Assembly: GCA_903813345.2 (NCBI GenBank)
Contig: CAIIXF020000007.1
Coordinates: 23,921,564 to 23,985,563, forward strand
DNA from: Owenia fusiformis
Lineage: Eukaryota > Annelida > Polychaeta > Sabellida > Oweniidae
Reading direction: 5' to 3'
Length of the DNA: 64,000 nt
The position numbers were made by a program, and so were the translations under genes. Shown piece by piece: positions 15,401 to 57,353 of the stretch (within the stretch, counting starts at the first letter, position 1; every line of letters begins with the position of its first letter). The notes under the pieces were generated by a model. That model saw only the letters and a program-made list of their open reading frames with translations. It was not told where the DNA came from and searched no databases.

Positions 15401-18400
15401 TAAAAGCTTTATAAAGACCCTTAGGTTGATGAAATTGAAGACATGTTGACTTTTATTAAAAATCTAATTTTGCAGTTTTTTGGGGTTATTAGACAAACAT
15501 ATATGACCTTCAAAATCCAATCACATGACTAGATCATGTGTTTGTGGTCTACAGTGTCTGGGGATGGGGATGTTAGAACTGGTAGAGGGGACATCTTGGG
15601 GGAGGAGACATTTTGGGGGGGAGGGGACATTTATGTTACCGAGATCTGTTGGTGTGTCCTGTATAAATAAGCCTTGAAAAAACCATTAGCTAAATAAGCT
15701 TCCAAGGCATAATAGGATTGATTTTTGGTTGAATTTTCATAAGGTTTCAGCATAATAGGATTGATTTTTGGTTGAATTTTCATAAGGTTTCAGCTTAATA
15801 GGATTGATTTTTGGTTGAATTTTCATAAGGTTTCAGCTATACAGAATTATGAATAGAGGGCAAGTTTTATAATAATTTTGACTCAATGTCATTCCTTATT
15901 CCTGTGTTCTTTGAAATCTGTTTATCCTGCATTAGCTGTTACACATCCAACAAGTACTTTTACACCCACTCAACTATTTTACATCCATCTACCTAATGTA
16001 CATACATGTAGTTATTATACATCCATTTAGCTATTACAGTATATATTTACTAAGAATGTACATCCACCTAGCTACACATTCATCAAACTATTCATGGGCG
16101 TAGCCAGGGGGGGGGGGGGTGTGTGCGATTGATGTGAATGCACCCCCCCATAACCAATAAGAATAGATAGATTAGATAGATGAAGAAAAGAGCTTCAAAA
16201 GCTTTTTTTGAAGTTTCTAGCTCAATTTTGAAGGAAGTTACATTAATTTTTGTAAAATTCAAAACAAATCTTTAAAATAATTATTTTGCTCGCTTATGCC
16301 ACGATCACTGACTGAAAACTACAATTTTTTGGGCGATCGCACTCCCCCTGACCAAAAGTGGCTATCCCCATGCTATTATACATCCACCCAACTGTTACAC
16401 ATTTATATAGCTTTCATACATTTATATAGCTTTCATACATTTATATAGCTATTATACTTCTATTTAATTATCCCATCGAACGAAGTTCGGAGGGATATAG
16501 GGAACACCTCCGTCCGTCCGTCCATCCAGGCAATAACTCAAATACTGTTGGCCCGATTTTGTTCATATTTTGTACACATATACCTTATGGGGGTAGAAGT
16601 TCTGTTCTAAAGCCGATTTTCAAAATTGTGGCCATTTTAGTGCTGATTTTACAGTAATTTAAATTATGTAAAACTGTAATATGTTTTAAATATAAAAAAA
16701 GTATATAGGACATTAATAAAGCTAGAAATGTAGGTATTAAAGAAGCACATGGCAGCCATCTTGAAAAATGGCGGCCTTTACTCGCTATTTTATGATTATG
16801 ATGATGACTCAAAGAGTATGTGGAGCGATTTTGTTCATATTTGGTATGTGAATACTATAAACATGGCACACTGTCTAATGACACTTTTGGTGGAAGGCGG
16901 CCATTTTGAAAAATGGCCATCATTTTAACATATTTTACTATAACTCGAAAAGTAGTGGAGCGATTTTGTTCATATTTGGTATGTGAATACTATAAGCATG
17001 GCACACTGTCTAATGAAACTTTTGGTAGAAGGTGGCCATTTTGAAAAATACCCATCATTTTAACATATTTTACTCTAACTCGAAAAGTAGTGGACCGATT
17101 TTTTCATATTTGGTATGTGAATACTATAAGCATGGCACACTGTCTAATGAAACTTTTGGTAGAAGGCGGCGATTTTGAAAAATGGCCGCCATTTTAACGT
17201 ATTTTACTATAACTCGAAAAAACTGAAGCGATTCTGTTCATATTTGGTATGTGAATACTATAAGCATGGCACACTATCTAATGACACTTTTGGTAGAAGG
17301 TGACCATTTTGAAAAATGACCGTCATTTTTGCTATATACTTTGTAAAAATGCTGTTAGAACTGTTAGAACCATGGCTGTTCGATGGGATTTGCTACGCTT
17401 TGATGTTGCTGTTGTCTAGTTAAATTACACATTCATCTAGCTATTATACATCAACCCAGCTATTATCATATATTTACCAAGCATGTGTATCATTGATACT
17501 TATATCGAAAAAGATGGCAGCACCACCTATAGAGAGGAACATTCTACACTTAGCTTAATTAATAGAATTAATAAATCAACGCTTCGCTCTATAACATTGC
17601 ATGTATGTTGCCAAGCATCCTGTTATGAGCATCCTTCAATCACAGGGCTACATGAGCTAGGTATGAATTGATTATGGAGCCCTGTATTTAAGTGGTGTAA
17701 CTAGGAACATCTAAAAAACTAATCAACTTAACTTATTGTCGCATGTTGTATCTTTCTCTGAACTCAGCTATTCATTAATTGTCCCAGGAGGAAAGTGAAA
17801 TCATATATTGTCAATCTTTGAATGGTGTCTTCAGAGGGTGTTTTATATATGTATTCAGCTTACATTTTATATGTGGTAGGTCATATGTGCCCATATGTAT
17901 ATCTCTAAGATAATTGTTTTATGTTTGCATTATACTTAAGAATCTGAAATGATAACATCAAAGATATTGCTTTAAAGTTATAAGATTATTGTATCACTTT
18001 TATGTACAGTATAGTCTTACTATTTTTAACTGAGTTGCATATAGCATTCTTTTGCATATAGCATTCTTAGCTATGAAGATTCATAAGTCTACTGTTATAA
18101 CCAAATGGAAATGTGGCTGTCATAGCATGAGAACAAGGAACATATTATGAATTCATAAACTTTAAAATGCTTACTGAAATGTACCCCTGTTTAACTATAT
18201 GATTTTTGTATTGTCTTATTGTATTGTTTATTCTTGTATTGTATTATTATCTTATTGTACAATTGTATAATTACAGCGGATTCAGTGTGTCAAAACCAGA
18301 ATGGAGGTTGTTCACATCTGTGTATACCTGTGCCCAATGGCAGAACTTGTATGTGCCCCAATGGATATAAAAAACTGAATGATACTACATGTTCTGATGG

Positions 18401-21400
18401 TGAGCCATTATTGTACAACATACCACACTTGTATACCACATTAAATGGGGCTGAATTATAATAAAAACTCCTAATTATCATTCTGATACTCAGACCATCT
18501 CTGCAATGCACAAGAAAGGAAACTGAGAGAAGGCTGTGATATCTCACAATGCCTTATTATGATATGAACAAAAATGGCAAAATATTACACTTTTATTGTC
18601 ATATGTAAACAATAGAAACTGACATTGCAATTGTTGGCCAACAATGCATTTACTTAGATGAAGCACTGCGTGAAATATGGGATTCCAACTCTTGACACGT
18701 CTAGAAACTGGTCTTTACACGCCGGGTTTCTAGACGTGCCAATTATTTACACCTCTTGACACGCGATGAATTCAACTCTTTACACCTCTTTGCACTTCTT
18801 GGCACACGCAGTGCAAAGACGTGTAAAGACCATGTCAAAAAGTCTTTACACGCCCTGTGACAATTAATGGAATCTCTTGACACGCTCTTGGCACACTGAA
18901 CAACATAATTATGTGTAAACAACTAACCTAATTACCAATAGCAATACATACAGTATTTTAACGATTGCAAGTATTTTCTCTGATACTTTTAATTGATATA
19001 TTTTTAATCATTCTTTCGCAGACTGTTTGGAACAAGTACATGTAGCAAATATTAAACAGACTATTTTGTATGTACGCTGACACATTGACTTATTTAAACA
19101 TTTTGGCAATTTCATGGCGCCTTTTGAAAATATAAATCAGTTACAGGCAATGCTAATCGACGCATTGATCCTAACTGAAGGAAATACATATCATGATAAG
19201 AAAAAGAAAGGCGTTTCAAGGATAAAACGTGCAATAAACTTTGAAAACACTGATACATCAGGCCTATTTATATATTTATTTTGTATTAGCTTAATATAAA
19301 GATAACCTTACTTTTCGATGAGTATTTGGATTTCGGAGTAATTTGTTTCAAGTTAAGTCAATACAAATTATCGCCGACTTAACTTGTAATATATGATAAA
19401 TGAGGGGCATTTTAATACACAATTGGGCAAAACAAGCATATTCAATCGAATGTACCATTCTCTCTGCTGTTCTTTCCCAGCCTATCCATAAACAGACAGG
19501 TACAAGTTCCCATAGTTTTCGCAACATCTAATTCTATGATCAATTGCTAGACACAGCAAATATACTAATTAATTGTCTGATTGTGATTCGGGAACGTAGG
19601 GTTTTTACATAAACAGGATACTTGGCTGTACATAGCCTGAGAACACCGGATTGACCCCCCCCCCCAATCGACGCCTAGGCGCTGCTTATGTTTTAATAAG
19701 AAACATTCCCTTGTAAAGAATTATCGGGATATAAATTGATACAAGGTCAAGTATTCTGCCCCTTTTGTGTGATAAAAATATGTATTTAATTGGTGCTTTA
19801 ACTTTTTGAACAAAGAAATGAAATAATCGCACTGAATGTCTCAACATAAATCAGTGATGTTTAATTAATAAATGACACTATTATGTCAGTCTACGCACTT
19901 CATGGACATGGACGGGGGGGGGGGGATGTGAGTTACCCATTCTAAAATGGTTAAATTTTGTATTAAAGAGTAATCAATAGGTCGTGAACTCCGATTGATA
20001 ACCAACTGTAGCATACTACTTAATTTGTTTGACTATTGATATTAAAAAGGAGTGAATTTATGATATTCATAGAGGTACATTGTATTGGTATTAATATAAT
20101 AATGATATTGGGGACCATAAACCACTTTGTTTCGCAAGTAGCTTTAGGATCGCGGTTTTATCTTCACATGTTGCCCTTTGTGCAATTCGAAAATGAAATA
20201 TTTTAATCTATAATTTATATATCATTTGCAAAATAAATGTAATTAAGAGACATGGGGGAGGGGGGGGGGGTTAACGGCCAGAATTTGGAATGAATTTGGG
20301 AATTTCAAGGATTGATTCACTTAATGTTGTTCACTGGAGTCGATACACACACCTGCATAACAATCGGAGACAAAACTGACTTAATCTGATATGATAACAA
20401 AAGATTAATAACTTAGTCTATGTTTTTGTTTTTATAATTGCGGAAGTGTACCAAAACCACCTTGATTACAGAAGATATCGTCTAGGCTTTAGATTTAATG
20501 AATAGATTTTTTGCCCTAGTCTCATTTAATAAAACAGGCTATTTGCGTATTTAATTAATATTTGTGACAAAATATTTCAGTTAGACTCAAAATCAAAACG
20601 AATTTCTCCATTATAGCCCCCCTTGCAACTGTCCCGAGTCTGCATCTGTTTTTCATGCTTCCGATCCACCTTTGGGATAGAGAGAATAGATGTAGATTTG
20701 TAATTTGGGGGGGGGGGTGGCATTAAATGTGTTCTCATACAAACTAAAATAAACCCCAAAAAGCCATATCAAATGTCCAAACACAAGACCAATGCCATGT
20801 CAAACATCCAAATATAGAACCAATGCCATACCCCCGGGTACCAAATATCCAGAATATAAGACCAAGGCCATTCGAAATATCGAATGCCCCGAGAAGAAGG
20901 CAGATCTTTGAGTAAAATGGTCATAAACAACCTCAAATGAAGGATATGTGTAACAACTAGACCAATGCCCCGGGACCAATGCCGTACCACAATTGAGGGG
21001 TAACATATTTTCCACACCGATTCTTATACCAGAAAATGGAAAAATCTGTCTTAAAATGTGGGTCCATTGGCTTGACATACCAAATGTAAAAAAGGTACCC
21101 CACCTGAGCCGAGTGTGAACCCCCGGGGTGAATGGTGAACACACGGGGCAAGGAATTCTTCGATTTTGATTCAAGTAATTTTTTTTATAAAATACTCATG
21201 TTAATAGCGGACGCCTTGGCCAAATAATCGTTCAAATCATGCACTTTCCAAGTGATTTTGTAGCAAAATTGTGATAATATATGAACCCTTGGAATTATTC
21301 AAAGACGGACCCCCGCCAGCCCATCCCCCATTCTTACCTATGCTAAACACTAAGATAAACATATAGAATGGTATCTTACACTTTTTTCTAAATGTTGATA

Positions 21401-24400
21401 TCCAAAAAACATATCTTTTTGGTTTATCAACACATACCGCTCACAATATAACAAGTATACAGATTGTAACATACGTAAGCGAATTGGGGAAAATTACAAT
21501 CCCTTTGATCAAATTATTATAAGATTTAATCTCCAGCTGAGGTGCAATCAAAATGTTGATACACATAATTAGCAGTCAGAAAGATGCTCTTACCACTGTA
21601 GTTTTCAATATTCCCTTTGTTGTAACATCTTATTTCAAAAGAATGGATATTGATGGTTGTATGGAAGTATTCATATCAAACATTCACATTATAGTTTACA
21701 GTGGAATTCCCTCCATGAATGCAACATATTTACCATTTAAGATTTCATATTGGACTTTCCGCATAATGATAAAATGTTGACGATATAGTTTTCGATAAAA
21801 CCCCAGGGCCGCAGCCAGCTTTCAGTCGGGTGGAGGGGTGATGCAATCACCAAAATATTTTAGGTTTTCAGTCGGGGGGTGCAATCGTGACATAAATGAG
21901 GCAAAAAATATTTGTTTTGAATTTTTACGAAAATGATGCAACTTCCTTCAAACCTGAGCTAGAAGCTTCAAACAAAAAATCAATTTAATGCTCTTTTCTT
22001 CCTCTACCTTATGGTACCTTTTATTGCTTGTAGGAGAGGGTGCGAACCCACCGCTTCTCCTCGTTACGCTTATAAACCCAATAACGTATTCCCAAGGAAT
22101 CGACTTTATTAATCTATATGTGAAAAATGAGCTTGCATGTACAAATTGCATCGTATGCAAACCTTCCCCTACCCTTTGCATTCGTTTGACTTCACTTCTT
22201 AACCCTTTCACGACGATAGGCTCCATATGGAGCCCTATTATGTAATACCTTTCAGGACGATAGGCTCCTTTTGGCACCATTATTTTTATTTATATACATC
22301 AATGAAATGACAATATCTCCAGTTCTATTCAGTATTTTTACACCAAATTTTGACAAGTTGTTCTTATGTGGTTATCCTTACTAAAAATTGTATATCTGTG
22401 ATGAAATCCAAGGTATAGGTCCCAGGGCATAGGTATTTTGCAGTTTTCCCCTAAAAAACACTCTTACTTATCCGTCACTGGGGACAACATTTTCCTCTTA
22501 TATTCACGTCGGGAAAGGGTTAAAAGAGAGTTTCGTCTTCAGTTTAACTAGACTCTGCACGCAGGGTAACCTTCCCCTGACCGACCCGGTCATGTTTATG
22601 TCTTTTGAATGATGTCTACCCCTTGATGCATGCATCCTTTAAGTGGTGTTAAGAATATTGGTGTAGGCCCTGGTGAAGGGATATGTCATAAAGATTTCAC
22701 GTTATCGCGATATACATGTAGCCGCGTCCCCTTTGTCTTTATCCTTCCAAACGCAAACGGCAGATAAGAGGGGTTCTTAGTGATTGATCTGATGCTTAAT
22801 AAGCCACTTACAAGATACAGTTTTAAATATTGATATTGTGTAAAGTTTTAACACATAGGCGTAACCAGGGGGGGGGGGTGCGATTCGTGAATGATCGCAC
22901 CCCCCCCCCCTGCTTAACCAATAGAGAAGGAAGAAGAAAGGAGCTTTGAATGGCTTTCATTTGAAACTTCTAGTTCAATTTTGAAGGAATTTGCAATGTC
23001 TGGTTCACATTTGCTCAAATTCATCGTCCGGCCTCCGGCCGATTGAGTATTTTGTTTAAAATTGTTTTCATGTTTGAAAAAACACTCAATCGGCCAGCCC
23101 CCGGCCGATGAATCGGAGCAAATATGACCCAGGCATATGAGGGGCAACATTTTAGATATAGTATTGTTTGAAATCCTGGGAAAATGCACTCCCCCAATTT
23201 TGCAAATCTGGTCTGCGGTACTAATGAACCCTCTAATTTGTTTTCGTTTACATGAGCAACTAACAGATATGTTTATTCTCATTCTGTCTCAGCTTGATTT
23301 TAATTAAATTTTACCCCCACCCTTCGAACGTCTTTGTCTCCCTCATTTTTGCAACCCTACATTCAGTTTCTTTTTAAACCAAATCAAGAAATATCCGTCC
23401 ACATATCAGATATTAAACCAATAGTTGTTCATTATAAGAACAACCATATATTATATTTATAGATCATAAGCTATTTTTAATTTCAGCTATAAAATTAGCC
23501 CTCTCTCCCCTCCTCTATCTCTAGATACGCAGAGTTTCTAGACCGGCTAAGCACGTCTAAAAATTACTAGAAATTCCACAATTTATACAGTGATATGGAT
23601 TTCATGTTTCTATTGAATCCCTTATTTTGAAGTCTAGCTAAATAATCGAGTTTGATTTTAAACGTTTTCGGGGATCCGGGCAGAACTCAGGATATAGTAC
23701 TTGAGTACATTTGCATTCAAAATAAGTCAAAATTCAAAATTGCAAATATCATGGAAGTTGATTGCAATTATGTTTCGATGATCGTCAACATGAAAGAACA
23801 ATATGTCTGAATAATTAGCTATTAAACATCTTTATCAAAACTTTCCTACACTTTTAAATGTTGATCTTGTCAAAGAGTACTCTCCATCTGAGATTCAGAT
23901 GTAGATCGAAAATCAAATTGATTTCAAAGGTATTTATAGATGGTTTACATGAGGGGTTCTGTCCGGGTGGTGTATTCCTTTCATAACAAAGAGTTGTTTT
24001 GCTTCCGGGGTCCTAAATTATTCAATTTTAAATAGTAACTGATAAGATTAAACAGATCAAAAAGACTCGGGGCACTGCCGTCGCCCCATCATGATCAATA
24101 CAGGTGACAATAAGCGACACATGTTTCAGCGTCATGATAGTAAACCATGACATCTCAAATCTTCCCAGCCCTTGATTTTTGAGATCTTTCATCCCAGCTC
24201 ATATTTAATCTAATTGGGGTAATAAAACTTGTGTAACTGTGCCTGTTGCATGCTCGCTGGAAGGGTATTTTACAAGTATAAATGAAGTCCTTTGAAGAAG
24301 GATGTGCCTGTTGTTAAATACATGTACAATGCCTTACTACATTATGTAATGTATTGACATTAAGGTAGATGATTACATGATAACAATCACACTTATTGAC

Positions 24401-27400
24401 ATTCATAACTCTTCCCATCTGATATGCTCAGATCACAGAATATGCTTCATTATATCAGAGCATGTTTCAGGCGTTTCAGACCCATAGCCAGGATTTGCCA
24501 AGGGGTGGGTTACTTTTTTAAGAAATTCCAGGGGGAGTTTACTTTTGGCAATGTTAGTTCAAAAATGAGCAAAATAATTTAAAAGGTGCTCAGTATGGGG
24601 TAAAAAATGCAATTTTGGTCACGGAGGGGGGGGGGTCGCTAGAACCAATCTATCCCCCCTGTATTCGGGCCTGCATGTGCTATCTACATATTTGACAATT
24701 TGATTGACACGGTTCAAAGTGGACTTTGTTAATTATTCAAACTGTTTTAATATCTAGGAATATGCGTCCAAGTTAAAATCACTCGAAATCAGGGTAGATA
24801 AACCTAAGAAAAACACATTTCTTGTTTTCATTTGATCTTTAACATGATCCTGTAAAAATGTCAGATTTAGCAAAATGCATAGGCGATCTATATCTGCACA
24901 CATCTACTCATTTCGACTAAGCTATTGCCTATACTTACACGCACACGCATACTTTTAAATTAATTTTATTTTGATAATGATTTAAAAAACACAAATTATT
25001 ATTAACACGAAATTAAAATGATTGTTATATTCCAATCCTAGTAAAGTATAATTAAGCGCGACTATAGGGCATAACAACATGTGGCCGGTCTAATTATACT
25101 GTTTGTTTTGATAAGGCTGTGCAAAGAGATATCAAAACTCTTGACACGCTCTTTACACGCGAGGTCTTTGCACCTCTTGACACGTCTTGGAATCTCTAGA
25201 TACGCGGAGTTCCTAGACTATCTTTGCACGTCTAGAAATTGCTTGGAATTTCACATTTGACGCAGTGAAGTTTATTATACTTTAAAGAAATCTGTTACAT
25301 TATCTAATTCTTATATAAATAACTTTTGTACTTACTCTTTTGTGGGCTCTTTTGATATTGGTATGGCCTTAATTACAAGTTTTGATATTGGTATGGCCTT
25401 AATTACAAGTTTTGATATTGGTATGGCCTTAATTACAAGTTTTGATATTGGTATGGCCTTAATTACAAGTTTTGATATTGGTATGGCCTTAATTACAAGT
25501 TTCGATATTGGTATGGCCTTGATTACAAGTTTCGATATTGGTATGGTCTTAATTACAAGTTTTGATATTGGTATGGCCTTAATTACAGGTGTGCAACTCC
25601 ATGCCACTGGGACAGTTTGGATTGAGCAAGACAAAGACGGCTCTGGGATAATACGTATGATCCATGGCTATCCTGGAGACTACCTTGAAAATAGCACTCT
25701 CGTAGTGTGGCAGGTACCGCGGGACAACTGGCATTGGCGAGCTATGGATTCAGATTTTAATAACAAGGCTGTAATTATGAGCGATGAGGCGGACAAAATG
25801 ATCATGTCAGTAAAACTAAATGGATTGGGCCACAAAATTATTTATGAAGGTATGCTTAGCTGATGGAATGTGCAATTATAGTTCTGTTTTGAATAATTTG
25901 ATGTGTTCATTAAACATAAAAGGGCAAAACAGACGAAGGCCCAAGGTCCAATATTTCACTATGTTGTCTGCTGAACTGAGGTTATTATATATTATTACTA
26001 CCTTGCAGGGCCTGTTCTAGGGGTTTTAGTACTAGTTGAGAAGGCATTTAAATTGCTATATTGACGTGAGCAATATTGTGTCGGGCGTTAATGACTTTAG
26101 TCGGGCAATAATGACATTATCCGCCCGGCTATGTTTCCCGGGAAAAGTGATATCGTTCAGTGCGTAAGATTTTCTATTTCAAATTTGCTATTTCAGCCCT
26201 GGTCATTAACGGTGGTAATAATAGTAATAACGTCATTTCTGCGGGCAAAATAGTGAAATATTGGACCTTGGGCCTGCGGCCCTTGGTCCAATATTTCACT
26301 ATATTGCCCTTTAAAATGACGTTATTGTACTATTGCTCAGGTCAATATAGTAAAATATGAGCCTTCTAAACTAGTACTAATACCCTTAGAACAGGCCCAG
26401 CAAGGTGATGATAATAAGATTATACTTGTATGCTTTTCATTGAAAAGATTCATTTGTACATTTTGACATCTTTCTAGTTGCAATACTTTTTGGTTAAAAA
26501 CCAGCAGGGGATGTGAACAAAATGTCCTAATTGAAATTATGAAATTGATTAGGGTAATCAATTTCACTAAATCTAGGTCAAGGCCAAAATTTTTTTATCT
26601 GTTGTAAAATATAGAATGCCTGTACTGATATACTATCTAATTAACTGGAATGCAATATATCACATCATAATTTTCAATAGTTATTTATTTCTCCTATAGA
26701 GGGCACCCAGGTTTACAGTATTGATATCATTGAAATTGTATACCCACAGGTACATCTAGCGAAGTGCAGGGTATTGCCGTAGACTGGTTACATGGCAACA
26801 TTTACTGGACGGATTCCACATATAACAAGATCATGATCGCTAAGAATGAAGAAAGAACAAATAACTCAAGAGTCATTGTAGAGACTGGGCTTGAGAAACC
26901 TAGGGGTATCGTTGTCAATCCTAAATTGGGGTAGGTTTTCTCAATGATATAATCTGACTCCTTTACTATTGTGTAACTTGTTATTGATACATAACACTTG
27001 TGATCATGATACATGCACATAATGATAATTATTATTACAATATAAAAAAAAGATTTTCCAAAATGTTACCAACTGTTAGATTTTTAGATTTCACATTTTC
27101 CAGAAAAGAGAAACATAGAGAAGAATTGTTAGTACTAATATGGCTAATTAAGGTGTTCTGTATTCTATACACCTGTTCTGTATTTTATGTACCTTTATTG
27201 TATTCAATACCTGTTCATTTTTCAAGAAACCTGTTCTGTATTCTATATCCTAATCTGGGGGCCGTTTCCAGAAATGTCGTAGACTTATGATATCGTAACT
27301 CAACGATAGTCGTAGGAATGGTGAAAGTTAAGACAAACTTACGACTGCCGTAGACTTATGACATGTCCGTTTCCATAAAAATCGTAACCCTGTCATAGAA

Positions 27401-30400
27401 ATTCGCAACTTATTACAAGTTCCATGACAAGTGATCCGAACGTCAGGTGACATTATTATTTAAATCTTTACTTGTATATGGTGTACTAGTCCTGTAGTCT
27501 GGTATTAGTGACTCAATATCATTATCCATATTGAAAGCTATTGTTTTGTTTTAAAAAGAAATCATATGCCCATAGGATGTCCATTGTGAATGGTCAATGT
27601 TATAAACAATTTCAACGTCAAATAACACAAGAAAGAAGACACCTTTGGTACATAATATGATCATAATACATAATCTTTATAACATATGTCGAAACATATG
27701 TGTCAAAAAATAAGTAAAAATAGAAATAAACGTTCTCATATGTTAAGTTTATGTTCATTTGCAAACCACTAGAGGTAGTCTTCAGAGATAGATGTATCTA
27801 TGAATTCTTTGGATCTTGCTAAACACCCAGAGGCAAATATAGTGGAAATTAGGGCACCTTGAAAATTTGAGCTTTTACAGAAATTCATCATGAAAATGCC
27901 CATTTTCTTATTTTTAGAAGGACACGAAGTCCTGCAATTTCTTCTGCGATCTGTCAAGTGCTCGCATTGGATACGCAAATTCTGACATAATCTATGAGAT
28001 AGTTAAAACACTCTCAAATAACCAAAATATTCCTCGACGACAACAAGGAGGGTGTCGTGGGTTTCACACGATAGCTATTATCCCAAATCATGAAAACACT
28101 AAATTGAATCTACGATATGGTAAGTCTACAACATTTCTGGAAACAACCCCTGTATTCTATATACCTGAATTAAAGATACCTGTATTGTATTCTAGATACC
28201 TGTTCTGAAATTTAGATACCTGTTTTGTATTCTAGATACCTGTTCCATATTCAAGATACCTGTTCTTTATTTTAGATATCTGTTCTGGGCAGAACAGGGT
28301 AAAAAGGATCAGATTGAGAGGTCCAACCTAGATGGCACTGAAAGACAGGTGTTTGTACCCGATCTCTATCGACCTAATGGTCTCGCTATAGATTCGGGAA
28401 GGTACAGTGTGACATAGATTATTTAGATTTGTAATTCCTTTCATGCAATTTTAAGGTTTCCAATGGCTAAATTATGTACGCCTTTAAACTGAAATATGAT
28501 TGAATAAGTTCTGAAATATTTGACCCTTTCCCCTAAATTCGCAAGTGAAGTCAGTACATTGAAGCTTTTTGCAATCTGTTATGCAAACCTAAAATGTTGA
28601 ATTTGCATTATCCTGTCAAAATGGCTGTTCTTTTTTTTAGAAAAGTGTAAAAGTGTATGATTACTTGTATATCTACAGCAATTTATGTATATATTGTGTA
28701 AATAAATATTATTCTTTTAATTATATTCATTTGGGAAATTAAAATTAGTTAAGAAGAGTTTAATTCCTATGAAATCAGTTACTTAGTAACTCATACCATG
28801 GGCTTTCAACAGAAAAGCCCATGCTCATACTTAGTATGCTAGCTGTTACTAAGTTGTATGTCAGGTATACAGATATGTGTACATGTATACTGTAACTGCC
28901 ACGGAAATTGACAAATGTAAGAATCATACAATTTATTGCACTGCAATTATAAGGCTGTGTACACAGATTGGAACCATGCTATAAAAAGACAAATCCATCT
29001 CAAGTTTTTATTTTGAAGTAAAGTTTGGACCATCATATCCTAAAATGAAACTGCCATCTACTTGATTTTTTCAAAATATAGAAATATATCTAGATGGGTC
29101 AGGATTTATCCCGCTACAAAATAGCACTTGCGGAACCAGAAAATAGCATTAGCAGAACCTTAATGGCATAATTAGCTGAACATTTTCCACCTATATACAT
29201 AAGATGTCCAAAAAGAACCAATTTATTGCTGCCATTTTTTATGTTTCATATTATATTATTGCAAGGTTGTTTATTAACATACACCTGTACTTGGCTGTGT
29301 AAGTGCAATTATAGGCTGTGTCCATGCAATATGTGGCTGTGCAAGTGCAATACTAAGTTAAATTGATACACCATAAATCTTATGGTAATATGCTGCATAT
29401 TGTCCTTCGATATTCTCACTTTCGATTTGTTGGCATATGAATCATTCAATGCATGTAGCATGGCCTTCTTGTAGACTGTACTGGACAGACAAATATAAGA
29501 TTGAGTCCATGTTCTTCGACAAGACTCACAGAAAGCAACATTTTAAAGGGACAGCGTCTATTTTCAACTTTGTTGACCTAACAGTTTACAAGGTAAAATA
29601 TATATGTTGCATGTCGCTTGGCTTTGTGTGTAATTTGATGCATTAAGCATGGCTTTCTTGTAGGCTTTACTGGACAGACAAATTCAAGATTGAGTCTATG
29701 CTATTTAATGGAACTGACAGACAGGTCCATTTTCAAGGGATGGAGTTTATGTTTAACTTCATGACACTAACAGTGTATAAGGTAATATGGCATTACTTAC
29801 TAGCTTGTCTAAATAGCATCTTGTGTAAAATAACATGTCATTTTTGCTCTGTTTAAACATTTATTCTGCTTCATACATCTTATGGCTATGAATTGTATAA
29901 TTTATCCAAACTTATATATTTTGCAAATTAGATGTTATTTCATACTTAAAGCTGTTTGATGATTTTAGTCTGACCACCGAAAGCTAAATAATTTAATCAC
30001 GTTCTCGGGTGACTACATTGCCATTCTATAACTAAACAAATTGTTGCATCTTTATTTGGCCAATTTCAAACTTCTTTTCAAAGTCATTCCCGGGAATCTT
30101 GTCATTTTTATATCCAGGAATACAGCTCACCCGGTATTTTTGATGAAATTCAATGTCATTCATATCAAGTGCCTCATTCAATATTATTTTAATTACCATA
30201 TTCCCTCTAATAAACACACATACTCCAATAAACATACATTACAGTACACCCCTCTTTTTGTCCAAGGTCAGAAAATCAAAGTCCTCGATCGGCAAATATT
30301 TGCTTTAATGCTGCTGTATGAGCTTTTACCTTGTTGATCATATCTACATCAGCATATAATAAGTTTATTTTATGATAAGGTGGGAGTATATTGATAAAAG

Positions 30401-33400
30401 GTAAAAAGGCTTATACTCTGAAGAAGGGGTATGATGTATAACAGATGTAAAATATTTATGAATCCTTTATCCCTAATACCATAGGCAAAGGGTGATAGAA
30501 ATAATTTTTAAATAAAGATGGCATGGTAATCGATCTGTGTTGTTGGTGCTGCCATCCTTATATCGGCCCAGAACTATGCCTAATACTAAAACTCCATTCA
30601 ATTGTAATAGATTCACCATTATTATACTTTTACACACAATATATGCTTTGTCAATCAGCCATCAAATATTTACCTTAAATGTTAATTTTAATGTCCTATT
30701 TCTTTGCTTAAGGAAACAATATTTGCGTGTGATGGGTATGTACCAGATTACTACCCTACCCTATGGTTCATGAATACTACAAGTGACACACGTCATAAAC
30801 TAACACTCAGGAATGAGCCATACGCAATTTCAATGTATCAGGATGAAACATTAGCTTCAACAGAGATAAGTAAGTAAATTGTCCGATTTGAATCAGTGTG
30901 CATCATATGAATTAGTGTGCTTCATAAGAATCAGCGTGCATCATATGAATCAATGTGTGTCATAAGAATTAGTGTCTGTCATTCATTATAAAAATCAGTG
31001 TGCATCATATGAATTAGTGTGTGTCATATGAATAAGTGTCTGTCATTCATCATAAAAATCAGTGTGCATCATATGAATTAGTGTGTATCATATGAATTAG
31101 TGTATGTCATAAGAATAAGTGTATATCATTTATCATATGAATCAGGGTGTGTCATACGAATCAGTTTGTGTCATATGAATCAGACTACTAGTATGTGCCA
31201 TAAGAATCAGTTTGTGTCATATGAATAAGTGTCCTTCATTAATTATTAAAATCAGTGTGCATCATATGAATTAGTGTGTTTCATATGAATCAGTGTGTGT
31301 CATATGAATCAGTGTGTGTCATATGAATCAGTGTGTGTCATATGAATCAGTTTGTGTCATATGAATCAGTATGTGTCATAAGAATCAGTGTGTGTCATTC
31401 ATCATAAGAATCAGTATGTATCGTAATAATCAGTGTGTATTGTATGAATCAATGTGTCTTGAAAATCGCTATGCGCCATATGAATTAGTGTGTGTGTCAT
31501 AAAATCATTGTGCATCATAAGAATAAAGGACGATTCTCGGTTTGGAGAACGAAGTTCATCAATCTAAATGAGCATTATCCCTGCTTCGGACAAATTTGAT
31601 TTTTTTCATAACATAGATTTGAATGTCCTCTTTTGAGTAGTCATAATTTAATTTGGGTAATATTTCTAGATTTTTTGCAAAAAATATCAGCGCAGTACAC
31701 TGATGAACTTCTTTCCCCAAATCGAGACTTGTATTTTATTGAATCAGTCTAATTGAGCATTATCCCTGCTTCAGACCAATTTGTTATTTTTACATCTTGT
31801 AGATTTAAATGTCCTCTTTTGAATATTCATAATCTAATTTGGGTAATATTTCTATATTTTTCATGAAAAAAATTATTAGCCCAGGAGACTGTTCTCCAAA
31901 CCGAGAATCTTCCTTTTGTATCATAATAATCAGTGTGCATTTTTCATCTTATGAATCAGTGTATGTTATATGTTAAACATACTCTATTCATTTTTTATTA
32001 TCCCATTGAACAAAGTTCCCAAATGTTTTTTTCTTTTCAGATGTGTGTGCGAGTGCGAACTGTCAGCACTTGTGTACAAGAACTACAAACAAGCAAGCTA
32101 AATGTCTTTGCAGAGATGGTTACAATCTGGATCGAAATCAACAGACATGTACAAGTAAGCACATGTTTTTATGATATCTAAAAAATTTTTGATATTGTCG
32201 TCAGCTTGTTTCTTTTCATACTGTGTTCAAAAAAGAATTATAGACCTATGGTCCATACCCAGATTTTAAGTAATGATTATGGCCAATCAATTCCAAATTG
32301 ACACCATTTTTCATGAAGAATGCCAGTTTTGATAACTCGAATATTGGTTATTAGACTTGCTCAAATTGCATAGGCTAATATAGGACCTTTTGCTCAAGTA
32401 GAATTTCTCCAATATAGCTGCTCAATTCAAAATGGCCACCATTTTCGGTGAAAATAGAATTTTTGATTATGCAAATTCCTTATTTTGGGTTTGGTTCAAA
32501 TTTTATACGCTAATACCTGAAAACATAGGACCTTTACTCAGGGAGAAATTTCAATAGGGCCACAATTTGGAAGTCCATTTATATAAAAATTAAGAATACA
32601 TTTCCATATGTTTTCATGATAATTACCGTGACAACCATGTAATGCTAGTTGTGTATTTTGTTTGCTTACAGAGGATGCTAACTATGACAAAACAGGTGCC
32701 TACATCTACAGTCTTGGCAACCGTATATGCCGCATACCAATCTCTATCGCAGGACAAAATATAGGACCACCAAACCCAGATAATTACTGCTTTTTGCAGA
32801 AAAGTAATATTTTTGGCTTATATATTGAATATAAGAGCAGTAGTAATCACTATATTGGAAATTATATTGTAAATTTTTGATATTTTTCTCCCTGATGAAC
32901 AACAATGACATTTTCAATTCTTTGAATAATTATTAGATTGTAATTCTTTTAATAACAAAGATTAACCGAAGGGTTATATGAAATAGTCATTTACAGCTGC
33001 CTGTAAAGTAGAGGAATCAATTTTATAGCTGCAGGTTGAGAAAAAATATTTCAAACAAGCTTTAAAGAGACACTTAACCATTTTCATCATAAATGAACTA
33101 CAAAATAAATTAAACTGTAGATATTTGAAAATAACATATCTGGTATTTCTTCAATTTAGAAGCTGAAAACAAAATGGAGTACAGATGGATTGACACAGAC
33201 TTCTACTCCGAGAGGATCTTTGTCTCGGAACAAAGGGAATTTGATACCAAAATTAGCACATTCCAAGCATATGATTCTGATAAGTCTCTTAGGACAATAT
33301 TCAATTACAGAGGAGTCATCTCAGGTGTTTACATCTTATTTTTATTGTTAAATTTTTACTACATTGTAATATTTTAATATAATTAATTGTTTCATAAGTT

Positions 33401-36400
33401 ACTGATTCATTAAAAGGAAAAACATAAAACGTTTGACAAATGCACCTGTTTTTCATTGTCCTCTTGGGTGTTTATTCAAATATCAATGTGTAATCAACAG
33501 AAAATTAATGAGATCTCTTTAAAACTGAAAATAAATGAATACAAATATGTAGTCGCATATTACATAATGTCATTTCAGTGTTCTCCATAAATGAATTAGG
33601 GATGGGATCTGGGAGTGTATTCTTCATTTCACCAATTTGATGTTATAATGAATTTTTTTGACAATGCAAAAGCCTTTCAAAGTCCCGCTGGCATTAGCAA
33701 ATCGGAAGTTTCAACTGTTCCAAAAACATACCCCTGATTAACATTCTACATTCTGTTTTTGAAGAATCAATGAAATCTAAGTGAAATAATTTATGATGAG
33801 ACTCATATGGCTTATATTACATGACAACCAATTAGAGATTATGAAATGCAGATTTGGATTCTTTGAACTTTTGGATCACCCCTCGTATTAGTGCAAAAAA
33901 ATTAATAGCGTTTTAACTTGTGTTCTTATTATGCTAAATAATATATAATATAATATTTTAGGGATCTATGTGGATTATATAAGTAACAACCTGTACTGGA
34001 CTGACAGTTTGAGAAATCAATTGCTGATATCCAGAACTGATGGCTCTTATCCATATATACTACAAAAGAATACGAAGAATCCTAGTGCAATCACAGTTGA
34101 TCATATACCAAGGTATGTACATGTAATAGTCCAAGTGCAATCACAGTTGATCATATACCAAGGTATGTACATGTAATAATCCCAGTGCAATCACAGTTGA
34201 TCATATACCAAGGTTTGTACATATAATAGTCCCAGTGCAATCACAGTTGATCATATACCAAGGTATATACATGTAATAGTCCTAGTGCAATTACAGTTGA
34301 TCATATACCAAGGTATATACATGTAATAGTCCTAGTGCAATTACAGTTGATCATATACCAAGGTATGTACATGTAATAGTCCAAGTGCAATCACAGTTGA
34401 TCATATACCAAGGTATATACATGTAATAGTCCTAGTGCAATTACAGTTGATCATATACCAAGGTATGAACATGTAATAGCCCCAGTGCAATCACAGTTGA
34501 TCATATACCAAGGTATATACATGTAATAGTCCTAGTGCAATCACAGTTGATCATATACCAAGGTATATACATGTAATAGTCCTAGTGCAATTACAGTTGA
34601 TCATATACCAAGGTATATACATGTAATAGTCCAAGTGCAATCACAGTTGATCATATACCAAGGTATATACATGTAATAGTCCAAGTGCAATCACAGTTGA
34701 TCATACACCAAGGTATGTACATGTAATAGTCCTAGTGCAATCACAGTTGATCATATACCAAGGTATATACATGTAATAGTCCTAGTGCAACCACAGTTGA
34801 TCATATACCAAGGTATATACATGTAATAGTCCTAGTGCAATCACAGTTGATCATATACCAAGGTATATACATGTAATAGTCCTAGTGCAATTACAGTTGA
34901 TCATATACCGAGGTATGTACATGTAATAGTCCTAGTGCAATCACAGTTGATTATATACCAAGGTATATACATGTAATAGTCCAAGTGCAATCACAGTTGA
35001 TCATATACCAAGGTATGTACATGTAATAGTCCCAGTGCAATCATAGTTGATCATATACCAAGGTATATACATGTAATAGTCCAAGTGCAATCACAGTTGA
35101 TCATATACCAAGGTATGTACATGTAATAGTCCCAGTTAATCGTCACTTTTACAAATATTTCAGAACTGTGTATTGGTGCGCTGGAGATGCAATCTGGGCT
35201 GCAGACACTGATGGGAAGTCTGTGGGACGCAAGGTGGTCAGTGACATAAGCTCACCTACTGGCCTGGTCATAGACTATGTTGAACGAAGGTAATTATAGA
35301 ATCAATATCTGAAACCTATAACATGTGTTTATTATTCCATGTAAGTGTATAGTTTTTAATTTGGGGCAGCAACATGCTGAATATTTTAATTATTGTCCTT
35401 AAATATCTAATTTAGTTATTTGATCCACACAAATTAGAATTTGTGCTAAGGTCATGTTCATATTTTTCATTGTACATTTGCAATCATAGTGATTAGAAAG
35501 GAAACAGGCTGAGAGTAAATTAAGAAAAATTGTCACAATTAAAAACGTTTTTTTCTTATTATAATTCACCTCATGTCCATTTTCTGAATTTCAACAGTTT
35601 ATTTTTGTGTCACCACCAGATGTAGTGTAACAAATGGCAAGTGGTGATATTTTGCGTGTCAATACCTTGTTTCCTTTGATTTTTCTCAGGACATTCTGTC
35701 ATGATTGCCCCATGATATTACCTTGTGTACTCCCTGATGATATTTCCCTGTATTCTCGATTGTGATTTTACCCTGAATACTCTAATTGATATTACACCAT
35801 ATACTCTGAATGGATATTACCCTGGGTACTCCCATGTGATATTACCCTGCATACTCCCTTGTTATATTACCCTGTATACTCCCTTTTGATATTATCCTGC
35901 ATACTCCCTTGTGATATTACGCTTCATACCCCCTTGTGATATAACCCTGCATACTCCCTTGTGATATTATTCTGCATACTCCCTTGTGATATTATCCTGC
36001 ATACTCCCTTGTGATATTACCCTGCATACTCTCTTGTGATATTATCCTGCATACTCCCTTGTGATATTATCATACATACTCCCTTGTGATATTACCCTGC
36101 ATACTCCCTTATGATATTACCCTGCATACTCCCTTGTGATATTATCCTGCATACTCCCTTGTGATATTATCATACATATTCCCTTGTGATATTACCCTGC
36201 ATACTCCCTTATGATATTATCCTGCATACTCCCTTATGATATTATCCTGCATACTCCCTTGTGATATTACCCTTCATACTCCCTCATATTATTACCCTGC
36301 ATACTCCCTTGTGATATTATCCTGCATACTCCCTTGTGATATTACCCTAATCCTGTGATTTCCTAATATACTGCCCTGTAGGTTATACTGGTCAGACAAC

Positions 36401-39400
36401 GTCTGGATGATGGTAGGCGCATTAGATCTAGACACTGGAGAGTACTGGCATCAGCATGATAGCACTCAAATAGAAGATGGTCTCAATGACATAACTTTGT
36501 TCCAGGTATCTACTATAGATGTATATTCATATATCACTCACTAGAGGTCTCTGTGTGTTGTGAAATCACCATAAACTGTAGATAGGTGGCACTGCTTTGT
36601 GTTAATCAATTTCTACCATGTATTTAGCACTCAAATCTAATCCTAATATTTTGTATTCTCTTTCAGACTTAAGCTAGATTCTTCTCGAAGCCAAATAACA
36701 AATATTATCTTTTTATTAAACAAAACATGTTTCACTCTATCTTCTGTCTTAAACACTTTACTGTACTGTATATGTGCTTCTTAAAGATGCATTGTCTCCT
36801 AGGTTTCTCTCATGAACAATCAGTGATGTTCCATTATTATTGCTAACATAATATCTTACATACTTTAGATAAATCGTGAGACCAACTTATAGGCACAGTA
36901 TTGCCAATATATTTAGAAAATCAACAGAACAACAAACTGTCAGTATTGAATCTATGGGAATTCCCATCAAGTGACAAAAGCGTTGTCACATCACTTGAAC
37001 TCTGGCAGCCAATAAGATTCAGAATGGGTTTTTGATTTTTCAAATTTCCAGATCATGTGACCGGATCTTCCATGGATATTCAAATTTCATATTCAATTTT
37101 TCGGTAAAAGTGATTCAGTCGGTCAGTACAATCGTTAAATTAGCACTGACAGCCGCGGACTTGGAACTTCGTTTGTAAGTAGATAGATGAATATGCAATA
37201 CGACTTATAGGCTAACATTCAAAAAAGTCCAAGAGGTCTTGATTGTTCTCTTCTATGTCTCAATGCATCTTTAAAATATTAATATATGTGCTTAACTAAA
37301 TGTCGTCTACATTCTTAATCTATGCTTCTCATGCTATATTAATACTGAGACCTACAAGTAGTGAACATACTTAGTATGACACATGATTGATGTGTTCTAG
37401 ACAAGTATGAAATATAACTGTTGTGTTCTAGACAAGTATGAAATATAACTGTTGTGTTGTGAACATAACTGTTATGTTTTAGACAAATATGAAATATAAC
37501 TGTTGTGTTCTAGACAAATATGGAATAAAACTATTGTGTTCTAGACAAATATGAACGTAACTGTTGTGTTCCAGACTATATTTTACCAATTCTATGAGCG
37601 GAGGTATCTATAGTGTTAGGCTAATATCAGGATCAGGAAAACGAACTTATTCACCAAGAAAATCCAATCCTATGTTTGACCTAGCATTGTTCCAGGTATA
37701 GTCACCCCTATTGGTAAGGTGACACTTACAGGGGCTAGGTGATACTTACAGGGGCTATGTGATACTTACAGGGGCTAGATGATACTTACAGGGTCTAGGT
37801 GACACCTAAGAGGGCTATGTTACATTTAGAGGGGCTGGTAATACTAACTGATTTATGAACGTCACAGGCACAGGGACTTGAGTTGAAAATTTTAGGGACT
37901 ATGTTATATTAAAAGAGGGACTAGGTGATACTTAAAAGGGCTGTGTTATATTAAAGAGATTAGGTGATACTAAAAGGGGCAACATAATATTAAAGGGACC
38001 AGGTGATACTTAAAGGGGCTGTGTCATATTAAAGAGACTAGGTGATACTAGAAGGGGCAATGTTGTATTAAAGGGATAAGGTGATGCTTAAAGGGACTAT
38101 GTGACCCTTCTACCCCTTGTAGAAGCAAGCTAAGTGACAATTAAAGGGGTGTAAGACACTGTGATACACCCAGGGGCTTAGTAGTACATAAATACATAGC
38201 ATTTAAAAGGATGTGGTGACATTAACAGGACTTATTTGGCCACAACCAAATCAATGGGCCTAGAAAAATAACTCTTGCTCATCACTTAAGATTTATTTGG
38301 TATATACTGGAACATTAATTTTTATTTCAATACACAATTTCTTTTGTGAATGTACTGTATATAGTTTTTTTAAATATTATTTGATTTTTAGCATTAATGG
38401 GGAATTAGTTGGTTACATACATACACCACTCATTTACTAGGTTGCTTATTATGATGTTGCTTGCTTAAATACAAATGATTCAACTTCTTGTTGTCATTTT
38501 ATTTCTCTGTGTATGCTTACTAATAGACAGATTTGAAGTACTTTAAACTGTATTATAATAAATGATAAGCCATGTAGGTGGTTATGCAGGCCAAAAGGTT
38601 GAACTGTCAAAAAATTGCAAAAAGATTCCTTGTTTTAGTGATGTTGTACAAAATCTTTTGCCATGTGTGAAAAGAATTTAAGCACTTGACTCAATGGTTT
38701 GTAGGGGTTTTTATGCACTCGTGGTTTCAATGCTAGACTTTAAATTTGGGCTCCCAGCTCATTGAAAGTCTCATACAAGACACTCATGCTAAAAATCATA
38801 TAAAAATTATTGGGGCTGGGCTTCCTTATCTTCCTTCTGAGATATATGTTGTTGGATATATGTTCATATATTGCTGATCAATTCAATGTATAATATTTAG
38901 AAAGGTGTCAAGACATTTAATACTCTGTAGGTTACAAACCTTTGTATGTGTTTTTTCTTCAGGATTTCATCGTTTTCACGGATTACAGCAGATCAAAAAA
39001 AAGAGCTGGAATTCAGATAGTCAACAAAGAGACATATAAGACAGAAAAGCTCATCTTGCATAATAATACAGAGAGAGCATATGGTATTGTAACAATGGAT
39101 AAATCACGTCACCACATGGCTAGGAGCCTCTGTGATGACAACAATGGCGGGTGTAATGAACTTTGTTTGGGTAACAGAAGAGGGCGCTCATGTCAATGTA
39201 CCCACGGGCATAAGCTTGTCACTGAGCAGAAATGTATGCCAAACATTGGTAAGTTTTTTTTAGAATAAACACTCACTTGAAAAAATGATTAAGCAATCCC
39301 TCAGTATTGCATGTAATATAATCTGTACATGAATTGGGTTGTCACGCTTCACTAAGTACACATATTCATGTTTATGTTATTTAATTGCAGCCTATTTCAA

Positions 39401-41950
39401 AAATGATGAGTTCTTACTGATAGCAGATGTCGGCAAACACTTAGTGTATAGTCTATCAAATACTGACCCTGCATCGTTTTATCGTGTACTGTCGGCAGCA
39501 AAAACACCAAATGGAATGGACGTTAAGGATGTATTATGGGATAACTTACGCAACCGCTTATATTGGTTAGAAGGGAATTTGATAAAGTCATCTTTTTGGA
39601 ACGGATCAATGCCTCAATCTATTGGACAAGGTTTGTAATCATCTATGCCTTATATATACTACTAAATAATATGTAATGTGGTGTAAACTGCACAGTATAC
39701 ATCCAGCGTCTTGTGCATACCTTGTTATTCAAATTGTAATAATTATAATATAAAAATGAATATAACATAACATCTATAATAGTGCAGTACTAGATACTTC
39801 TGTACATATAAAACTCTACACATTTGATCATGATTCAAAACATTTTTTTCCAAAATTGAAGCTGGCTGAGCTGTTTAAATTTCATGCTTAATGTTTTTTT
39901 TCCAAAATTGAGGCTGGCCTGGCTGTTTAAATTTCATGCTTAATGTTTAAGTATAATTTATGAGTATGACAGTGTGAGACTATCATGAAGATTTCACTCG
40001 ATTTTACTAGCTAACACTACTGTAATAGATCTCAGAAGCTTGGGTTAAATATATTATTTATGTCATATGCCATTTTAATATATATAAAGACATGGCAAGT
40101 AATGCCAATATGGCACAGCCATTGAAATAAATTTATAAATAGAAAAAATAAAAAAAACATCTCAGTGAATCAAATAATGTTTATGAGTCTACTGCACTTC
40201 TACTCAATTTGGCACTCTTTATTTTGGCAGATTTGCTGTTTTGAATATTTAGTGGCTACTTAATTTGCTGTACTTGTAGTATTGAAATATTGAAATGTAT
40301 ATACGATACATATTTAGTATTGGAATATGAAATATTGAATTTGATGGCTACTTTATGTGGCGGCCCTCAACAATTTGTTGGATCTGCCAAATTAAAACAG
40401 CCACCAAATTAAGGTAGAAGTACAGATTCCTGAATTGATGATTCCATGTATGCAAAAAATCCATTTATTGTTAAATATTATTATATTTTAGCACTTTTCA
40501 AATGATTTTCCCAGGCAGAGCTGGCTATGGGCCTGCGTATAATATGATTGAATATTTCGTTGTTTTAGGAGATAATATTACCGAAATGGCCTTAGACAAT
40601 AGAGCCAGATTACTCTACTACAGCTACTTTGATGCATCTACACAGCTGACAAATATCAAAGTGTACAATCTGCAGAGCACTAATGACAAAATTATAGTAA
40701 AGAACGCTACCAATGCCAGGGGACTTGAAATTGACTTTGCTGGAGGGTATGTACGAGATTATTCCATCATTCTTAGACATGTGCAGTAAAAAAAACTGTC
40801 GAGCTTTAACATCTCAACAAGAACACCTCCATAAGTGAAACACTTTTTCAAATTCCTGGGACTCGTTGCCTGATATTAAGTGAACTTCTGTAAATGGAAC
40901 TCCTCCAAGTGGTTTTATAGTCCCAGGGATGGCCCACTTGCAAAGATTTTACCGTACACTATTTAGAAAGCCATTATCTTTTTTTTAGATACTTTATATT
41001 GATTGACTTTGACAGAAGGACATTATATTCCATATATTACCATCTCACATGCAGTACACAGGCCTTTTTGTATTGACATTAACAAACATTACACTACTTA
41101 TTTTGAAACAATTTATTTCAGCTACCTATATTTTGTGACGCTGGGCCTTGGGAACTCAATTATAGAGCGTGTCATGCTAGATGGAACTGATCGTAGAACA
41201 ATACAGGCGGGAAATATCAACTATATTACAGATATATCCATAGATTATAATTGTAAATATTCTTTTCTAACCTTCCTTTTATTTTGCCCGAAGCCAAATT
41301 AAAAGAAAATTATCATCTACATGTGAGTTTTCAGATTCCTACATGTCAAATGACTGAGCTAAGTTAAGCACACAAAAATTCAAGAGTATATGATTGAGTT
41401 AGATATTCGCATATCAGTTATATTTCTGTGGTATGTAATGATATCCAGGTAAGTGAGTTAAATGACAATTAATACTTAAGTAGTTTAATAAAAGAAAAAA
41501 AGTTCAATGACATTACTGTATAACATGTATTAAATCCGGGTGCTTTATTTTCCGAATTGGATTTAAATTGTTTTTTCCGAATAAAAGTTTGTCGACATCC
41601 CTTAATGTAAAGCCAAATAAATAAATATTGCTAAGTTGACACCCCTAGTATAATTTTGATTTACAACTGAATTTTAATCACCTTCATTTGACTGACTCAG
41701 AAAACCTGACATTAGGAGTGACAATTTGAGTGATTACCCGCATTCGACAGATTCAGGACAATTAATACCAGGATTAAAAACTTAATACGGGGATTAAAAA
41801 CTTTTAATACTGGGATTTCCAAAGCACTTGGATACAATTAGATCTTCTGACATTTTAACTTTTTAACATGACAATCCTTTTTATGTCCTCACCACATAGT
41901 GTGGGGCCATATTGTCGGCCTAGGCGCGTCCGTCTGTCTGTCTGTCCGTA

Positions 41951-42022
<72 letters not shown>

Positions 42023-48000: not shown

Positions 48001-49371
48001 ACAAGAACTGACCAATCAGAGGGCTTCATTTTACAGATCATACGATAATACTCTTTTTCATTTCATGTTCATGTATTGTTCAGTTTCATATAACAACATT
48101 GCTCTTTTTCATTTCATTTCAACATTACTTTTAATATTTCAGCTATCGACTACTGTAAAAATAATCCTTGTAAAAACAAAGGAGTTTGCCGTCAAACTGA
48201 TGATGTCAGACTTGTGAAGTGTTACTGTAGGCCCCATTTCACAGGCCAGTACTGCGAGACACGTGAGTTGCATGCTGATTATGTAATCAAGATGCTTATG
48301 AATACGTTAACAATCATTTTATGGAAATAAGCTTTTGATAAATAGGGAATACTAAAAGGAGGAATTGGAATTATATTTGTGAGCTCATTGTGAATATACA
48401 TGTACTTGTTCAATTTTTTCACATTTTTTACCCATTATTATATCTTTTATTGACTCTTTAGATGTCATATCACCATGAACTTTAAAAATATGAATTTGAA
48501 AAATAATTGAAGTGAGTAGAGTTAGAATCAGAAGAGATTATGAGAGTGTAAAATGTTTGAAGAAATACTTTCAAAAATCATGTTAATGTCTCACTTACAA
48601 TCGTAATCATATTTGATATCTGATCAAATACAGCAGAAGTTATTTAAAATCAAAGATCGAGGCAGAAATGTCCAAATTCAGTAGAATACCATTTTTGGCC
48701 AGATAACATTAAAAATTAAAAGATTATCTTGATATAAAGTCATAACTGTTGAACTTTCAAACAATAGCATGGCATGGAATAATGAGTGCAAAAAATGTTG
48801 TAAGATTGTGATTTTTCGATACTTACTCGTCTCTTTCCCTTCTAAGCTAACAATCATACATATCACATCTGAAAAAGGACATTATCTTTTCCAAATATGG
48901 AAGTGATTCAGGATGAATATATGTGTAAATGTTTAATTATGAATCTATGTAAGTACATGTACAATGAGTTCACAAACACATGAAATTGCTTGTTCTCAAT
49001 ACATGTGGAAACTACAGTGAAATCTATCTTTTACAAACAATGTCTTCCCAGTATGCTATCTTTTCCTCTTTACAAAATATAATTTTTGTAATGATGACCA
49101 AACTTGGTCACAATATACCAAATTTTCCTTCTTTTGATAGCACAGGAGTGAATTGGATGTAAAAAAATCAATAATTATGCTCCCCTTCAAGCTCTTTGGT
49201 TTAAAGAGATAGACATAACCAGTGTTTACAAAGACGGGGTTTACTGTACTTATCTACTGAAATAGGGTCAAACTTGCACAAAGAATAAGAGAATCGCTTC
49301 CATCTGTTTTTATAATGCAACATTCCTGGTTATTCTTTGATTAGCGATACCTTGGACAACACCCACTAAAG

Positions 49372-49403
<32 letters not shown>

Positions 49404-51073: not shown

Positions 51074-51101
51074 CAAGGGTGCAGTTTTCAGACAATACCC
51101 A

Positions 51102-56547: not shown

Positions 56548-57353
56548 GGCTGTGGTCTAATCTGTATTTAAATAAAAAACAAAGTTTTAGTCATGCATCT
56601 CAATAATCAAGACCTTCGCCTCTAGAAGTAAGTTGTATCTGCGGAGTGAAATACAATATACAATATATGTGTTTAATATGACCATAAAACTACCGTGCAT
56701 GACAAGATCCTATCAAATATTGAAAACTTAAATTGCATATTTTAAATGAAACTACTGATAATTGAACCCATCATGAGAGGATAGAAATTATGTTTGATAA
56801 TAATCATATGATGCCTTTCAATACGACTCACGTAATTGTATGATCGCCCCTTTTGTTTTACAGTAATTCATGTTAAATACGAACGCCACTGGCGGCTTAA
56901 AGTGTTCACATTAACAGGTGTTCACATTTCAAGGTATTGTTATGTGATATAATGAGAGATAACAAAATTGGGATCGAGATATAATGTTCAGTTCGAATAA
57001 GAAAGGTGTACAGGTTTTACTGTTGACTGCTTGACCAAGTGAAATGGATGAAGAGCTGAATATCCGAGGGAGGTCCGGAAAATAAGGCAGGTCATACGGT
57101 ATAAAATGTCGTCTAATCACCGTGAGAAATCATGGCCATCTATCCGGGCATGATATTTGTTCTTTCCTAGAATTAGTTCATATTAGCCAATATTATTTCA
57201 TCGCTAATTGAAAAATCTGAGAGAAGTGATGAGTGTTAAATATCTGATGTATATGAGTTGTTTGTTAAGCTGAAAACGTTGAATAAATTACGGATATTAC
57301 AGAAAAAATTCAGTGTGATAATGAAAATGAAAACATATTAAAATATAACATAC

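Follow-up and report, generated by a model that had tools for sequence, protein, structure and literature searches.

Does a pair of similar, adjacent exons in a receptor-like gene of the annelid Owenia fusiformis form an either/or switch within a beta-propeller, and is it the only such pair in the gene? The locus lies in a window of 64,000 nucleotides, the whole stretch of DNA that was analysed (assembly GCA_903813345.2, contig CAIIXF020000007.1, positions 23,921,564 to 23,985,563 of the forward strand), and coordinates below are those of the window unless stated otherwise. The pair was placed in a gene that we modelled exon by exon, of which the following parts frame the protein:

1676..51074, plus strand: modelled gene within the window, with 32 exons when all alternatives are counted
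50183..50276, plus strand: transmembrane exon
50611..51074, plus strand: cytoplasmic tail exon with NPGY and NPTY, ending in TAA
G000:C7:23915455-23915527, 6.1 kb upstream of the window: likely first (signal-peptide) exon, MEYCVIGVLLMLTLCSGQSTTPAP, with donor GTAAGT, in phase with exon 1676-1915

The model held 31 exons at first, which, once joined, encode 1,718 or 1,719 residues depending on exon choice; their phases agree, and the first stop is the last codon. Addition of one further alternative exon, P1-b6x, brought it to 32 exons. Its 31 introns are all GT-AG, with no unusual intron type among them. The layout comprises four YWTD propeller-EGF units, two CCP-like modules, an EGF module, a Thr-rich stretch, a transmembrane helix and a tail. 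The protein thus has YWTD propellers followed by EGF modules and a single transmembrane helix with an NPxY tail, as expected of an LRP. Pfam placed PF00058 (Ldl_recept_b) above the cut-off in the fragments of propellers 1, 2 and 3 and did not report it in the propeller 4 fragment, while EGF families were reported in all of these fragments, above the cut-off only after propeller 1. No LA repeat (PF00057, E 0.01) was found in six fragments, taken without 32672-33324 and the Thr-rich, transmembrane and tail exons, and because none was found in the fragments scanned we call the gene LRP-like rather than a standard LRP. The CCP label was given because these modules align to the CCP region of a Lingula anatina protein (P0004), which carries PF00084; on the gene's own protein, Pfam reported no Sushi domain at E 0.01.

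Several features of the surrounding DNA were observed in passing. Between the first propeller exon and the likely signal-peptide exon lies a collagen-like Gly-X-Y open frame (114-521), which may be a further exon of this gene or belong to a different one. At 34080-35136, a minisatellite with a 50-nt unit and about 21 repeats holds 19 copies of the donor of exon 33962-34112 (CCAAG/GTAT), its own included, and this exon has many tandem potential donors. Exon 25589-25849 has an acceptor that is directly adjoined by a similar 30-nt repeat of about eight copies (25350-25587). A 20-nt tandem repeat (28174-28287) is similar to the start of exon 28276-28401 and its acceptor; use of an acceptor three repeat units (60 nt) further 5' would lengthen the protein by about 20 residues without a change of frame. 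A general enrichment of minisatellites at the gene's splice junctions was considered and rejected, as 8 of the 33 arrays lie there where 7.6 would be expected (P 0.5) and, at a score of at least 100, 7 of 16 where 5.0 would be (P 0.2). Beyond the gene, the minus strand carries an open frame of 392 aa (55378-56556) that resembles an alpha-1,2-fucosyltransferase (GT11) and, within 59551-63583, several frames with what are presumably Ly6/uPAR-like cysteine patterns.

The pair that raised the question lies in propeller 2, between two exons taken as constitutive:

28276..28401, plus strand: exon 5' of the propeller-2 pair (blade 4), taken as constitutive, phase 2 out
29475..29592, plus strand: P2-b5a, upstream alternative exon of propeller 2 blade 5, 118 nt, phase 2/0, 40 residues, net charge +4
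29593..29663, plus strand: intron between P2-b5a and P2-b5b, 71 nt, GT-AG, in-frame TAA if retained
29664..29781, plus strand: P2-b5b, downstream alternative exon of propeller 2 blade 5, 118 nt, phase 2/0, 40 residues, net charge +1, NGT sequon
30713..30869, plus strand: exon 3' of the propeller-2 pair (blade 6), taken as constitutive, phase 0 in

A preliminary description of this DNA had proposed that one, and only one, of the two exons must be chosen. Its coordinates, its lengths of 118 and 118 nt, its phases (2 in, 0 out) and its 71-nt gap were all re-derived as claimed; the common RLYWTDK start and LTVYK end are correct, and the NGT sequon that it assigned to P2-b5b is found in that copy only. 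The copies are identical at 85/118 DNA positions without gaps and at 26/40 residues (14/40 differ), and both have an intact acceptor (TTCTTGTAG) and donor (AAG/GTAA). Either exon, taken singly, joins blade 4 to blade 6 in frame. Also as described, inclusion of both leads to a stop at the tenth codon of P2-b5b and skipping of both to a stop in the following exon; retention of the 71-nt intron (307 nt, in phase) reaches a TAA. Boundaries, phase, frame-breaking length, splice sites and stops, together with the constraint and branch-point spacing given below, support the proposal that P2-b5a and P2-b5b are a mutually exclusive pair, as far as sequence can tell. The sibling exon had a relative alignment score of 0.65; the highest value reached in 400 simulated intron sets was 0.105. 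When the 498-Mb genome was searched, the sole DNA match of the 307-nt stretch was itself, and the propeller-2 protein gave 32 matches, comprising the gene's own exons and other YWTD loci, the latter with a local identity of 30-49% at most.

The position of the exon in the fold was defined on the AlphaFold model of a crinoid homolog (P0214, mean pLDDT 82), which is not the window's own protein. Alignment to this predicted structure bears out the earlier placement in propeller 2 blade 5, of which strands b, c and d belong to the exon together with the first strand of blade 6. Most of the differences between P2-b5a and P2-b5b fall in the c-d turn, strand d and the d-a loop. In Pfam, Ldl_recept_b matches blade 4 of this propeller and not the alternative blade 5 alone.

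Is the propeller-2 pair an isolated case? We compared the 29 internal exons with stop-free AG..GT candidates of matching phase and similar length in both flanking introns, a procedure close to the published one in the available part of PMC5740500. Three pairs stood out, in propellers 1, 2 and 3, where the preliminary description had only that of propeller 2; for 7 of the 29 exons there was no candidate to be scored, and P4b5 was flagged, then dropped for a relative score below zero. The two further pairs and their neighbours are:

7434..7614, plus strand: exon 5' of the propeller-1 pair, covering blade 5 and the beginning of blade 6, taken as constitutive
10059..10174, plus strand: P1-b6x, upstream alternative exon, rest of propeller 1 blade 6, 116 nt, phase 2/1, net charge +9
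12597..12706, plus strand: P1-b6, downstream alternative exon, rest of propeller 1 blade 6, 110 nt, phase 2/1, net charge +1
18277..18399, plus strand: EGF exon 3' of the propeller-1 pair, taken as constitutive
35164..35289, plus strand: exon 5' of the propeller-3 pair, taken as constitutive
36382..36505, plus strand: P3-b5a, upstream alternative exon of propeller 3 blade 5, 124 nt, phase 2/0, net charge -7
37575..37695, plus strand: P3-b5b, downstream alternative exon of propeller 3 blade 5, 121 nt, phase 2/0, net charge +5
38963..39248, plus strand: exon 3' of the propeller-3 pair (blade 6 and EGF), taken as constitutive

In each of the six queries, the sibling exon came first among the candidates of its interval and was equalled in none of the 400 simulated introns of that query, and no third copy emerged in any cluster, the best third candidate having a P of at least 0.075 in each query against 400 simulated introns. 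The pairs of propellers 1 and 3 also have matching phases and frame-breaking lengths, and their double inclusion and double skipping lead to stops. P1-b6x has the acceptor tttttctcag and the donor GAAGG/gtaaga. P3-b5b is weak against a general blade profile (E 1.6 only, compared with 0.0001 for P2b, 0.003 for P2a and 0.3 for P3a), and the case for it lies in its phase and boundaries and in its likeness to its sibling and to homologous blades, against which it scored 28, 29 and 38, compared with 6, 15 and 16 for P3-b5a. Each pair consists of neighbouring exons of similar length (118/118, 124/121 and 116/110 nt) in the same frame, with similarity beyond chance, no in-frame stop, GT-AG sites and no full-length product on joint inclusion or skipping, which are the marks of a mutually exclusive cluster given in the section of PMC5740500 available. 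Quite probably, judging from these sequence features, the propeller-2 pair is one of three mutually exclusive clusters in a single LRP-like gene, one in each of propellers 1-3.

Such clusters presuppose that both copies are in use. In propeller 2, one copy might be a non-functional exon duplicate, a pseudo-exon, given that tandem duplication is common in the gene (33 arrays of period at least 14 in the merged list) and that neutral drift of both copies left both frames open in 24% of simulations, so that open frames alone are weak evidence. The differences between the copies nevertheless make a pseudo-exon highly improbable. Their dN/dS is 0.16 (bootstrap 0.04-0.43), with 14 synonymous changes on 22 sites and 19 non-synonymous changes on 98 (Fisher P 8.6e-5), at a dS of 1.4 that brings synonymous sites near saturation. 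When the 33 differences were simulated in 2,000 runs, an outcome of at most 14 amino-acid changes and no stop was obtained in 0/2,000 with both copies drifting, in 0.65-0.85% with one copy neutral (P 0.0065-0.0085) and in 17-86% with both constrained (P 0.17-0.86). Besides the acceptor and donor kept in both, the copies match outgroup blades almost equally, P2-b5a and P2-b5b scoring 42/45 and 58/65 against Branchiostoma and Antedon blades and an equally poor 4/4 against a Lingula blade. Both propeller-2 copies look coding. It might still be that this pair alone works and that the additional exons of propellers 1 and 3 are relics in decay: their copies are strongly diverged, the profile value of P3-b5b is the poor one given above, and the downstream copy was closer to homologous blades in seven of eight within-cluster comparisons, with one tie, so that upstream copies might be decaying. 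We hold this to be unlikely, as open frames, exact phase and usable splice sites have been kept in both copies despite the divergence, and 0/400 nulls match the propeller-1 and propeller-3 siblings. Individual exons of these older pairs could be weakly used or dead.

How would a single exon be selected? The 71-nt intron of propeller 2 is the shortest of the 31 modelled, the next having 142 nt, and its best branch-point match, TTGAT, puts the A at +46 from the P2-b5a donor, with weaker matches at +41 and +54 (all of them matches to a consensus matrix). A donor and a branch point closer than about 50 nt are not usable together, according to the portions available of PMC5740500 and PMC7969005. 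Because of the predicted branch point at +46 and the short intron, steric exclusion combined with decay of mis-joined transcripts is the simplest reading for propeller 2. The exons of propellers 1 and 3 lie 2,422 and 1,069 nt apart and are not of the steric type; because of this spacing, only the frame rule is evident there. The early stops, which all six wrong combinations tested carry (three pairs, both in or both out), also suit a looser scheme, in which the alternatives are not strictly exclusive and double-inclusion and double-skip transcripts are regulated decay products that tune receptor level, and joining reads were present in 18 of 20 frame-breaking clusters in one comparison, in the part of PMC5740500 that was available. 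Such tuning seems rather unlikely, since the branch point predicted in propeller 2 lies too near the donor for a to be joined to b. Exon choice could instead depend on competing RNA pairings of the Dscam type, RNA-structure control being known for other clusters (PMC6071210, partial text); yet eight intron/exon duplex tests, all in propeller 2, gave z from -1.86 to +0.31 with none below P 0.08, and we consider this very doubtful. Local folding of the short propeller-2 intron was unremarkable (z -0.43). Returning to steric exclusion and the frame rule, we propose that each cluster would have arisen by tandem duplication of a single exon. In propeller 2, the predicted branch point would lie too near the P2-b5a donor to permit a-to-b joining, and nonsense-mediated decay would remove the rare transcripts with both exons. 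For the pairs of propellers 1 and 3, further regulators would work together with decay and the frame rule.

The swaps would alter charge. With net charge defined as K+R minus D+E, the upstream and downstream exons carry +9/+1 in propeller 1, +4/+1 in propeller 2 and -7/+5 in propeller 3. The differences of 8, 3 and 12 jointly exceeded those of 20,000/20,000 random triples of 40-aa segment pairs from the same ectodomain, by a statistic chosen post hoc. Selection of one exon per cluster would swap most of one blade and change its net charge by these amounts, and 2 x 2 x 2 choices would provide up to eight ectodomains, with different ligand preferences, from one gene; we infer that the switched propeller surface binds ligand. 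We give about an even chance to the fuller reading, built on these predicted exons, that the clusters are three independent either/or switches between a more basic and a neutral or acidic form of a blade, which would make eight electrostatically distinct ectodomains and a small combinatorial recognition receptor.

We then looked for the arrangement elsewhere. No close relative appeared among the matches listed in protein searches, where the closest protein of the same architecture was the Lingula anatina 'prolow-density LRP1 isoform X2' (P0004; 1,658 aa), colinear with the model at 27% identity over 85%. Among 333 homologs (28,114 pairs), 43 pairs were flagged as possible blade-swap isoforms and none looked by eye like a swap of homologous blades, in a database clustered at 90% that may hide isoforms. 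In the same genome, neighbouring blade pairs at most 3 kb apart were sought in 15 stretches of 10 kb, which were taken from the propeller-2 protein matches and not from all PF00058 loci. No second such pair was seen by eye among the best 14 of 287: the sole pair closer than 1.7 kb was the window's own, and the remaining best pairs look like equivalent blades of successive propellers. This control excludes recent duplicates only, because it also missed the propeller-1 and propeller-3 pairs.

The usual view of LRP-type receptors is that they widen their ligand range by added modules or gene duplication. Here, one gene seems to do so by splicing-swapped blades in three propellers, with large charge changes. 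Comparing natural isoforms of this kind would be a way to look for the blade that governs ligand choice in a YWTD propeller, and the gene would be an example of exons duplicated several times over at almost the same place in the fold of a single protein. No report of mutually exclusive exons in a YWTD propeller was found in the open-access literature, where absence is no proof. The words "lipoprotein" and "LRP" are absent from the main texts of PMC9741552 and PMC7954323, and co-mentions of mutually exclusive exons with the LDL receptor or LRP1 concern, in the portions of text available, FGFR2 and tau.

Among known systems, LRP5, LRP6 and arrow share the four YWTD propeller-EGF units, and the first structural match of the P0214 homolog model is LRP6 E1E2; in contrast to them, the present gene has no LA repeats in the fragments scanned and CCP-like modules instead. 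PPPSP motifs, the mark of LRP5/6 tails, are absent by eye from its tail. Lingula P0004 has, by eye, the same order of four propeller-EGF units, CCP modules, transmembrane stretch and tail, but three CCP modules where two are present here. Insect Dscam1 has far more exons per cluster and is controlled by RNA structure, whereas each cluster here has two exons and no such pairing was detected in propeller 2. Its likeness to this gene lies in the combination of several mutually exclusive clusters in one protein (PMC8042237, as far as its available text goes). The mechanism proposed for propeller 2 resembles that of OGDH exons 4a/4b, where, in the available text of PMC7969005, a short intron with branch points within about 50 nt of the donor enforces exclusivity; OGDH is an intracellular enzyme whose branch points were mapped experimentally, while ours is a consensus prediction. 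The closest functional analogue found, in another propeller family, is integrin alpha-7 (ITGA7), whose mutually exclusive X1/X2 exons lie, like those here, within the ligand-binding propeller of a receptor and alter laminin affinity (PMC12564407, from the part available). As described there, ITGA7 has one pair in a seven-bladed FG-GAP propeller, compared with three pairs in six-bladed YWTD propellers and the swap of nearly a whole blade here.
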